DNA from: Palaeococcus pacificus DY20341
Lineage (GTDB): Archaea; Methanobacteriota_B; Thermococci; Thermococcales; Thermococcaceae
NCBI RefSeq assembly: GCF_000725425.1
Contig: NZ_CP006019.1
Coordinates: forward strand, 434,001 to 498,000
Direction of reading: 5' to 3'
Length of the DNA stretch: 64,000 nt
In this document: in pieces, positions 27,754-30,391 of the stretch
Layout: every line of letters starts with the position of its first letter
Numbering within the stretch: the first letter of the stretch is position 1
Translations under genes and position numbers: made by a program
Notes under the pieces: generated by a model
What the model was told of the DNA's origin: nothing
What the model saw: the letters and a program-made list of their open reading frames with translations, nothing else
Database searches by the model: none

Positions 27754-28125
27754 ATGGCAGTGGTTGAAATGATGGAAGTGTTAAACCAAAGTTCCTCTAT
27801 GCTTGAGGCGAAGCCGGGCAATGTTATTTATTATGAGACTTTTAATGTGAACGGATATTTATTCAAAAATGGCTCTTTAGCAGGTGTTTACGCTGAAGGA
27901 GAGCTAATTCCTATTAAGGGCGAGAATTTGCCTTATGAAGTCCACGATAGGATTTTAAACAGAAAAAAGAGGTTCCACATCGTGTTTTTAGTAATTTGCA
28001 GAGAAGATAAGTATAAAGCAATGATCTATCTCGAAAACAGCTTAGAAAGATGGCTAATCTATGAAAAGGAGCTTGGAGAGAAGGACATCCAGTCATACTT
28101 GTTAAGTGGGCCCGGGGGGCTTTGA
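27754..28125 (+). CDS. Hypothetical protein ending inside a tRNA gene
   Basis: 123 residues, no membrane segment. No family recognised. A strand-rich N-terminal part (NVIYYETFNVNGYLFKNG) is followed by KKRFHIVFLVICREDKYKAMIYLE. The reading frame runs into the antisense tRNA (CAT) and its TGA lies within it (28123-28125), giving the tail SGPGGL from tRNA sequence. The start is uncertain: ATG 27754 lacks a strong RBS, and ATG 27769 or 27772 is possible. It could be a real gene whose end was extended by the tRNA overlap. Confidence 0.6.
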   Translation: MAVVEMMEVLNQSSSMLEAKPGNVIYYETFNVNGYLFKNGSLAGVYAEGELIPIKGENLPYEVHDRILNRKKRFHIVFLVICREDKYKAMIYLENSLERWLIYEKELGEKDIQSYLLSGPGGL

Positions 28126-28181
28126 ACCCCCGACCACGCGGTTATGAGCCGCGCGCTCTGACCAGGCTGAGCTACGGGCCC
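28107..28181 (-). tRNA. tRNA with CAT anticodon (likely Ile2, possibly elongator Met)
   Basis: A full cloverleaf of 75 nt on the minus strand: acceptor GGGCCCG/CGGGCCC, D arm GCTC/GAGC, anticodon stem CGCGG/CCGCG with loop CTCATAA, T arm GGGGG/CCCCC with loop TTCAAAG, discriminator A. CCA is not encoded (next bases CTT). It lacks the initiator features (three GC pairs GGG/CCC and AGC start). The GGGCCCG acceptor resembles archaeal tRNA-Ile, so a C34-to-agmatidine Ile2 is favoured. Confidence 0.95.
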
Positions 28182-28202
28182 ATGAGAGATATGAAAGCAA
28201 TA

Positions 28203-28278
28203 TGGCGCCGCCGCCCCGACTTGAACGGGGGACCACCGGATTAACAGTCCGGCGCTCTGCCGACTAAGCTACGGCGGC
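28203..28278 (-). tRNA. tRNA-Asn (GTT)
   Basis: On the minus strand the acceptor GCCGCCG pairs with CGGCGGC, the anticodon loop CTGTTAA gives anticodon GTT, and the D arm and T arm fold well. Discriminator G and the CCA end (28205-28203) are encoded. It lies 21 nt upstream of the CAT tRNA, so the two are probably one transcript. Confidence 0.95.
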
Positions 28279-28308
28279 ACAAGCCCATTCATAGGGAGTG
28301 CAGATTGA

Positions 28309-28350
28309 TTTATAAATCTTACGGTTCACCACGGCGAAAACTTTATAAAT
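28309..28350. promoter_or_regulatory. Back-to-back TATA boxes of the divergent tRNA groups
   Basis: TTTATAAATC (28309-28318) read on the minus strand is about 30 nt upstream of tRNA-Asn; CTTTATAAAT (28341-28350) is about 25-30 nt upstream of tRNA-Thr on the plus strand. The 97-nt gap thus holds two strong divergent promoters. Confidence 0.75.
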
Positions 28351-28375
28351 GCTGTTCAACACCTTTTCAAACGGT

Positions 28376-28452
28376 GCCCCGGTGGCTCAGCTTGGTAGAG
28401 CGGCGGACTTGTAATCCGCAGGTCCCGGGTTCAAACCCCGGCCGGGGCTCCA
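28376..28452 (+). tRNA. tRNA-Thr (TGT)
   Basis: Acceptor GCCCCGG/CCGGGGC, anticodon loop CTTGTAA giving TGT, discriminator T and an encoded CCA (28450-28452). First of three plus-strand tRNAs. It begins about 26 nt after the TATA box, the expected start distance. Confidence 0.95.
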
Positions 28453-28460
28453 GTTTTCAT

Positions 28461-28538
28461 GGGGCCGTGGGGTAGCTTGGTCTATCCTGCGGGCTTTGGG
28501 AGCCCGTGACCCGAGTTCAAATCTCGGCGGCCCCACCA
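28461..28538 (+). tRNA. tRNA-Pro (TGG)
   Basis: Acceptor GGGGCCG/CGGCCCC, anticodon stem CGGGC/GCCCG with loop TTTGGGA giving TGG, discriminator A, encoded CCA (28536-28538). It follows tRNA-Thr by 8 nt and is cotranscribed with it. Confidence 0.95.
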
Positions 28539-28539
28539 T

Positions 28540-28616
28540 GCCCCGGTGGCTCAGCCTGGTGGAGCGGCCGCTTGGTAAGCGGCAGGCCGCGGGTTCAAAC
28601 CCCGCCCGGGGCTCCA
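28540..28616 (+). tRNA. tRNA-Thr (GGT)
   Basis: Acceptor GCCCCGG/CCGGGGC, anticodon stem GCCGC/GCGGC with loop TTGGTAA giving GGT, discriminator T, encoded CCA (28614-28616). Only one base separates it from tRNA-Pro. It shares its acceptor stem with the TGT isoacceptor. The accessory gene pair begins on the other strand 11 nt beyond its end. Confidence 0.95.
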
Positions 28617-28627
28617 ATTTCGCCACT

Positions 28628-29401
28628 TTAAACTATTGAAGTTGCTTCTGAAGAAACGTCGAAAAATATCTTCTTCAACCTCGGTAAGATAATATCGTTA
28701 GCTACGATGCCTGAGTAAACATCGAACAAACTGTCGAGGAATAGGACAACAAGGGGGACTTTCTCCGCATCAAATTGGAGTGGACGGTATACGAGAACTC
28801 TGGTCTCTTTACCCTCGGGGAGGTCAGGAAGTTCACGAACGTACACATTCAGGTTCCTGCGGGGAACGTAGTAAGTTATCCGGTAATAGTAGTATGCACC
28901 ACTGTTCCCCGTGAAGAGCGCACCATTTTCCTTTAGTCTCTCGACTACTTCGTCAATGGGGAGGGATGTTTTCTTGACCACTACATCACCAACGAGCTTC
29001 CTCACAACATACAGAGCGTAAAGGAGTACGAGAGGCCTGATAATTTCCGTTCTGTTCTGTGAAATTCTTTCCCCGGCGCCTATTCTCTCGAGAACCCTAT
29101 CTCTAGGGATAACGTTGTTCCCGTCGAGTTCCACGTGTATCAGGTATCTGAGATACTTGGAGTAGTCATTCACAAAGTTGTCCGTGAGGTTCAACCTGTA
29201 TATCTTGTACAGGGTCTCGAAAAGCGTTGGGTCATCCGGCTCGATGTTGTTGTGTAGTGTAAAAACGCCAGCTCTCTGTAAGAATTCTTTAAGAGATACC
29301 CGTCTATCCCTATCGAGTGAAGATATATACTCCCGCGTTTTCCCGGCCTTGCTTGCACGCACCAGACCTTTCAATATGACTTCGAGCGTCTTCACCCCCA
29401 T
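28628..29401 (-). CDS. Unrecognised protein, partner of a nucleotidyltransferase-fold protein
   Basis: 257 residues, no membrane segment or cysteine motif. No family recognised. The N-terminal third is helical and basic (LVRASKAGKTREYISSLDRD). A helical centre (RTEIIRPLVLLYALYVVRKL) follows. The segment SLPIDEVVERLKENGALF then YYYYRITYYVPRRNLNVYV could be a winged-helix-like or beta-rich unit. The ATG overlaps the preceding gene's TGA by 10 bases, so the two are translationally coupled. It lies at the 3' end of a tRNA cluster, a common site of foreign gene insertion. A defence or toxin-antitoxin role is inference. Confidence 0.65.
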   Translation of the reverse strand: MGVKTLEVILKGLVRASKAGKTREYISSLDRDRRVSLKEFLQRAGVFTLHNNIEPDDPTLFETLYKIYRLNLTDNFVNDYSKYLRYLIHVELDGNNVIPRDRVLERIGAGERISQNRTEIIRPLVLLYALYVVRKLVGDVVVKKTSLPIDEVVERLKENGALFTGNSGAYYYYRITYYVPRRNLNVYVRELPDLPEGKETRVLVYRPLQFDAEKVPLVVLFLDSLFDVYSGIVANDIILPRLKKIFFDVSSEATSIV

Positions 29402-30126
29402 ACAAACTGCTTAATGTTTTTGATTTCATCCCGCACTTCCAGATACTTCTCACGCACTAGGTTAAGGGTTTCCCTTTGGTCTTCATCATAGAGGAAACTG
29501 GAAAGGTCATCCAAGGTTTCTAATGTGTTTTCAATCAACTCTTCAAATTCTATATATGTTTTGCTTTTCCCCAATATATACTTTTTCAAATACCGCTTAA
29601 CTCTGGGGATATTCACGTGTATCGTGTCAGACTCCATTAGGTAAAAGATGTCGTTTATATCCTTGATGGACTTCCGGATGCCTCTTTGGGTGCCGAGGCC
29701 TCTTCCGGGAGCAGAGATGAACTTCATTGCAACGAGTATTGTGGGATCGACAATGGGGAATCTGACCCCTCCATACTCCACAATCTTGGCAGTATTCCGG
29801 AGGTCTGAATGGTCTAAACCCATATACTTGAAGACGGACTCTGAGTTGAAAAAGTCGATAGATATTTCCTCGATGTGGTTGCTTCTGATTTTTGGCTTTA
29901 TTTCTTCGATGGTGGCCCGGATGGTGTCTTCAAGTTCTTTGTTGGAAACATAAATATCGATGTCCTCGCTTCTTTCGCCTCCGGCGTAAATATAAACTGC
30001 CCAACCTCCCAGTAGCAGGTAATCTCTTTCTTTGGCCCCATAATGCTCGTCGAGAAAATCGAACAACATTAAGAGCAGTTTTTCACTCGCGAGTGTTATT
30101 TCCTCACGGTTTATTCCATCCGGCAT
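29392..30126 (-). CDS. Nucleotidyltransferase-fold protein (AbiEii/DUF6036-like)
   Basis: 244 residues. LLLGGWAVYIYAGGERSEDIDIYVS near residues 37-62 matches the GG[WA]xxxx...DhD active-site motif of minimal nucleotidyltransferases and the AbiEii/DUF6036 type: GGWA for the phosphate loop and EDIDIY for metal-binding acids. VRFPIVDPTILVAMKF is the next strand of that fold, followed by a helical C terminus. The start is placed at ATG 30126, with GGTGAT 4-5 nt upstream. It is the first gene of a two-gene unit with its unrecognised partner. A TATA-like ATTATAAAA box is about 30 nt upstream. A role as toxin or antitoxin is not provable here. Confidence 0.75.
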   Translation of the reverse strand: MPDGINREEITLASEKLLLMLFDFLDEHYGAKERDYLLLGGWAVYIYAGGERSEDIDIYVSNKELEDTIRATIEEIKPKIRSNHIEEISIDFFNSESVFKYMGLDHSDLRNTAKIVEYGGVRFPIVDPTILVAMKFISAPGRGLGTQRGIRKSIKDINDIFYLMESDTIHVNIPRVKRYLKKYILGKSKTYIEFEELIENTLETLDDLSSFLYDEDQRETLNLVREKYLEVRDEIKNIKQFVWG

Positions 30127-30235
30127 ATTATCACCGTAGAGCATTATTGTTTTTCGATTATAAAAAAGTTCTTGGCAGAATGTTTATAAGAATATTTTGA
30201 AGCTCCAGAACTTTTATTTTTACTTTCAGTATTGC

Positions 30236-30254
30236 GATAACAACGATTGTTATC
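30236..30254. promoter_or_regulatory. Perfect 8-3-8 palindrome, possible operator
   Basis: GATAACAA-CGA-TTGTTATC, perfect arms of 8 bp around a 3-nt centre. It lies about 80 nt upstream of the accessory TATA box and 140 nt upstream of the rpo box, so it could be an operator or an integration-related site. Nothing in the sequence decides which. Confidence 0.35.
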
Positions 30255-30391
30255 ACACTATTTCAGCATCAACACGATGCACGATTATGTACGTTAATGA
30301 TGTTTTAAGGTCTCTCGCACTTTTGTTTTTCCTTCTTAAACTTTACGCAAGCCATATAAATGAAAAACTCAAAGTAACTTGCGATAGTCCA

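Follow-up and report, generated by a model that had tools for sequence, protein, structure and literature searches.

A Putative AbiE/MenAT-Type Gene Pair of Reversed Order at a tRNA-Thr Locus of Palaeococcus pacificus

Overall Organization of the Locus

Between a tRNA cluster and the RNA polymerase operon of Palaeococcus pacificus DY20341 lie two overlapping genes, here A and B, and the locus raises the question of what kind of unit they form and how it came to this site. The window analysed is the whole stretch of 64,000 nucleotides from position 434,001 to 498,000 of contig NZ_CP006019.1, and all coordinates refer to it. An earlier note on this DNA described an overlapping pair made of a nucleotidyltransferase (NTase) gene and a gene for a 257-residue protein, 11 nt from a tRNA-Thr end, with tRNAs on one side and the polymerase operon on the other. 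This description agrees with the coordinates: both minus-strand open reading frames exist and share a 10-nt overlap, the stop codon of B is separated by 11 nt from the tRNA-Thr(GGT) end at 28616, and A is divergent from rpoH (30454) and the gene for a 1118-aa RNA polymerase B subunit, both of which lie on its upstream side. The features are as follows.

Gene A, 29392–30126, minus strand: 244 aa, AbiEii/DUF6036-like nucleotidyltransferase, probable toxin.
Gene B, 28628–29401, minus strand: 257 aa, probable strongly diverged partner/regulator.
Overlap of the A stop and the B start, 29392–29401, minus strand: 10 nt, ATGGGGGTGA.
tRNA-Thr(GGT), 28540–28616, plus strand: its 3' end is the left edge of the inserted stretch.
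Inserted stretch with B, A, and the upstream region, 28617–30355, no strand: 1,739 bp, as against 149 bp in the congener G002.
Putative A-B operon promoter, 30127–30200, minus strand: read by eye, unscored.

The ATG at 30126 is a better start for A than the longer in-frame ATG at 30144 because GGTGAT directly precedes it. Two TATA-like stretches were found by eye 5' of A, CTTATAAA near 30185–30192 and TTTTTTATAA near 30158–30167; together with GGTGAT, they presumably mark candidate promoter and start signals of an A-B operon. The 10-nt overlap suggests that A and B are translationally coupled. Translation of B probably depends on that of A, and the two proteins would therefore be made together. 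A perfect inverted repeat, GATAACAA-CGA-TTGTTATC, is present at 30236–30254, about 110 bp 5' of A. As an operator, this 8-bp palindrome is a faint candidate only, with arms of this length occurring in 47 of 400 shuffles. On the tRNA side, a 79-aa ORF at 28387–28626 (minus strand) runs antisense to the tRNA genes; it is likely an artefact that could enter annotations. The "tmRNA" called by ARAGORN at 28108–28538 (plus strand) is false and spans real tRNAs.

Gene A Encodes an Active-Looking Nucleotidyltransferase

The AbiEii toxin binds GTP and carries motifs I–IV, namely hG[G/S]x(n)DhD, K...R, and +DxxD, and mutations in each of them abolished toxicity (Dy et al., PMC3985639). All four are kept in A, which contains the motif GGWAVY...ERSEDIDIY. 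Motifs I and II read L39 G40 G41 x13 D55 I D57; the definition, hG[G/S]x9-13DhD, allows a spacing of 9–13, and the spacing is 13 in A and 15 in AbiEii. Motif III is formed by K135...R142, with the Arg seven residues past the Lys, and the residues between the two deviate from the exact COG4849 wording (KLxAaxxR). Motif IV is formed by K155-D156-I-N-D159. In an alignment of 25 sequences, G40, G41, D55, and D57 are invariant, other invariant columns include S53, K135, K152, K155, D156, and D159, and conservation is 90% or more at R142 and at a third Asp, D91.

A matches neither the AbiEii nor the DUF6036 curated model in Pfam, NCBIfam, and PADLOC. Its relatives are better covered, since Pfam places 19 of the 25 in DUF6036 and 5 in AbiEii. 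In a comparison of the family profile of A with the PDB, AbiGII is among the nearest solved sequences (E 0.004), and an AbiEii/AbiGii-family toxin is matched weakly (E 0.54). PADLOC also returned weak HamA matches, which cover inconsistent parts of the profile, and an identity of A with HamA of Hachiman was rejected. Judged by its motifs, A looks like an active member of the AbiEii NTase superfamily, though one that the curated models miss. The AbiEii/DUF6036-like assignment proposed earlier is thus borne out, and a degenerate active site, which the same note held would speak against its reading, is not what was found, as the catalytic residues are all kept.

These motifs also bear on the roles of the two proteins. 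In HEPN/MNT systems, as reported in PMC7641770, the NTase adenylylates and thereby silences its partner. On this precedent, A would be the antitoxin, modifying a toxin B, and B is indeed larger than the usual partner of such NTases and helical in its N-terminal half. However, A possesses motifs III and IV and groups with AbiEii/DUF6036 rather than with the minimal MNTs, and B has no HEPN family match and most resembles regulators, so that this reversal of roles is very improbable. The only HEPN-like motif (R-x4-6-H) in B, R43-x6-H50, is at about the chance level for a protein with two His residues.

Gene Order in Relatives of A

In the genomes of the family Thermococcaceae, A has one clear match, G052, with 33% identity, plus one borderline match. 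A scan with A and this relative gave 50 loci, and more were added by genome searches. In 77 of the 77 loci with a readable 5' flank, a set that includes several duplicates (the same genome reached twice), the NTase gene is directly preceded by a regulator gene, typically of about 195 aa and often slightly overlapping. An automated tally counted 72 loci as partner-first, none as partner-second, one at a contig edge, and five as unassigned; the last are over-extended NTase ORFs, in which the upstream regulator is evident on reading. No ORF of at least 60 aa is present on the strand of A between A and rpoH within the window, so the order of A and B is truly inverted. The earlier observation that the partner comes second here therefore holds against all readable relatives.

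The closest counterparts are DUF6036-type NTases paired with an upstream winged-helix (wHTH) regulator (for example L102/L003 in a Thermococcaceae MAG, L098, and L126), whose NTases are 22–28% identical to A. They share with A-B the invariant NTase residues and two overlapping genes, and the distal two thirds of their partner weakly resemble B by profile. Yet the regulator comes first, the NTase is usually about 200–215 aa long compared to 244 aa for A, and the regulator, of about 195 aa, has a clear N-terminal winged helix, whereas none is recognised in the 257 aa of B.

AbiE (AbiEi/AbiEii) of Streptococcus agalactiae, a type IV toxin-antitoxin system (PMC3985639), shares NTase motifs I–IV and an overlapping two-gene operon with the present pair. 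It differs in that AbiEi precedes AbiEii with a 4-nt overlap, whereas the NTase gene is first here, in the spacing of motifs I and II noted above, and in that A and B match no AbiEii or AbiEi model. The functional hallmarks of AbiE systems are a toxic NTase, its neutralisation by the partner without direct binding, and phage resistance; the partner combines a winged helix with a C-terminal antitoxin domain. Their regulator gene comes before the NTase gene and overlaps it, which is not the arrangement of A-B. On the reading favoured below, A-B would work as AbiE does, but both gene order and curated-model matches were tested and neither agrees, so the pair is not counted as an AbiE system. Another AbiE-like pair from an accessory island of the Thermococcales, that of the PYG1 island of Pyrococcus yayanosii (PMC5126054), also stands beside a tRNA gene, tRNA-Gln, but is regulator-first, belongs to COG5340/COG2253, and is part of a 21-kb island with an integrase.

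Other arrangements were met in the loci collected. A second, more distant type of AbiE-like pair is scattered across the Thermococcaceae (L138–L148 and L153); it consists of a winged-helix regulator of about 190–205 aa with "SGxSALW", followed by an NTase of about 240–300 aa, and is always regulator-first. A Patescibacteria contig (L088; 2537–3199 and 3361–4555) has a second AbiEii-looking NTase ORF just 5' of a regulator/NTase pair, possibly forming tandem modules.

Gene B Resembles the Regulators Weakly

B was described earlier as a protein that could be placed in no family, and it has no family match in Pfam, NCBIfam, or PADLOC. As a single sequence, B is matched weakly by hhalign to the regulator profile (P 7.6e-4, probability 25%), with residues 83–253 aligned to profile positions 47–218, i.e., from the recognition helix through to the C-terminus, and with a score above 200 of 200 shuffles. 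A wider regulator profile gave a P of 5.5e-4, above 150 of 150 shuffles, so that the shuffles total 350 over both profiles, although the hhalign probability for B is only 25–30% overall. The control ORFs that outscored B were all true regulators except for two, both of them HTH proteins by Pfam. Plain HMMER against the regulators separates B less clearly, with 1 of 500 shuffles scoring higher. The C-terminal half of B alone gave no signal and no separation with a C-terminal-only HMM, and an hhalign comparison with the second set of Thermococcaceae regulators likewise gave no signal. Regulator matches obtained in other Thermococcaceae from a single query are unrelated HTH proteins.

When modelled by AlphaFold without an alignment, B has a mean pLDDT of 37, too low to be of use, with residues 100–247 mostly at 20–50. 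With the regulators aligned, the block means for residues 100–247 are about 65–87, a gain owed in part to the alignment itself. The latter model has a predicted helix-plus-wing pattern followed by an α/β domain, and a Foldseek search with it found no matching solved structure in the PDB. The N-terminal part of about 95 aa is helical and unlike the regulators. In a Thermoplasmata regulator of this kind, 329 aa in length (L110:2208–3197), the HTH follows a lengthy additional N-terminal segment, so partners remodelled at the N-terminus are known from elsewhere too.

A new protein, unrelated to the regulator, may instead have replaced it as the antitoxin or cofactor of the NTase, giving a toxin-first pair. 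The empty family and Foldseek searches, the lack of a relative of B in any collection searched, its distinct N-terminal part, and the inverted order would all fit such a replacement. Against it, the match over residues 83–253 keeps its order all the way from recognition helix to C-terminus and is above all 350 shuffles, and it falls on exactly the family that the context predicts; replacement is accordingly considered unlikely. Because of the profile match, and because this NTase family otherwise always stands beside this regulator, B is probably a diverged relative of the regulators with a winged helix and a C-terminal domain, with a new helical N-terminal part of about 95 aa. Its label as unplaceable thus probably does not stand, as B most resembles the regulator of this very NTase family, even if the match is only weak.

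An Accessory Pair at the tRNA-Thr End

B has no match at E 0.001 in the other 93 genomes of the Thermococcaceae. No match was found in GTDB contigs by a low-sensitivity scan, the searches of viral contigs, plasmids, and phages were all empty, and there was no convincing match among sampled genomes of Thermoproteota (398) and Thermoplasmatota (293). The one weak match, in the Thermoproteota genome G246, has no adjoining NTase and looks like chance.

G002, of the same genus, has a rpoH that is 91% identical, and its tRNA cluster and rpoH are syntenic with those of P. pacificus. The homology continues to the final base of tRNA-Thr and restarts at position 30356 of the window, with the break at 28616/28617; at this site, P. 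pacificus has 1,739 bp and G002 has 149 bp. Since B is absent from the other genomes searched, the relatives of A are distant, and the site is empty in G002, the A-B unit is accessory. A break at a tRNA end together with an empty site in another genome is the pattern of tRNA-targeted insertion. These data uphold the proposed acquisition at a tRNA locus, and the universal conservation that would have argued for a different reading is not seen across the family genomes searched. The tRNA neighbours are markers of the insertion site, and they give no evidence for tRNA as the target of the pair.

No att direct repeats were found at the site, nor a tRNA copy on its far side, and no integrase ORF lies between tRNA-Thr and rpoH within the window. 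In G001, another member of the genus, an ORF resembling an archaeal tyrosine integrase (L062:1285–2166) begins inside a tRNA-Thr 3' half and adjoins rpoH, in the place of the A-B pair and in an 8-kb stretch without a complete tRNA. Because of this ORF, it seems that integrating elements make use of the tRNA-Thr/rpoH gap in Palaeococcus. The A-B unit may have been delivered by an integrase.

The missing integrase and att repeats, and a strongly diverged B known from one genome, could also mark a decaying relic of a formerly mobile module with no present function. However, both frames are intact and overlapping and A keeps all its catalytic residues, which makes decay quite improbable.

Proposed Mechanism and Implications

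On balance, the likelier reading of these sequences is that A-B is a horizontally acquired AbiE/MenAT-type toxin-antitoxin module in which the gene order is reversed and the partner remodelled. MenA/MenT of Mycobacterium tuberculosis, a pair of an AbiEii-superfamily NTase toxin and an antitoxin, is linked to A by a weak profile match of the A family to PDB 8an4 (E 0.54), and MenT is reported to transfer a nucleotide to tRNA (PMC10435456, PMC11375011). By analogy with such systems, A would be toxic and B would neutralise it, in a defence role that is possibly anti-viral. A would attach a nucleotide to an essential cellular target, with tRNA the likeliest candidate if it acts as MenT does, and growth would stop. 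B, made from the same mRNA by coupled translation, would restrain A by means of its C-terminal domain and may also repress the A-B promoter. Loss or disturbance of B, by a virus or by loss of the unit, would release A.

A bolder and rather unlikely possibility is that B founds a new antitoxin/effector family that displaced the AbiEi-like regulator, in which case A-B would be a toxin-first AbiE-type system controlled without a classical winged-helix repressor. For the remodelled module favoured here, the locus would represent a toxin-first variant, found in a deep-sea hyperthermophilic archaeon available in culture, of a family in which the regulator very regularly comes first, and its partner would have diverged so far as to be hardly recognisable. 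With such a pair, one could test whether the DNA-binding or the C-terminal domain of AbiEi-like partners is needed to restrain the NTase. In addition, the tRNA-Thr/rpoH gap is indicated as a variable site in Palaeococcus.
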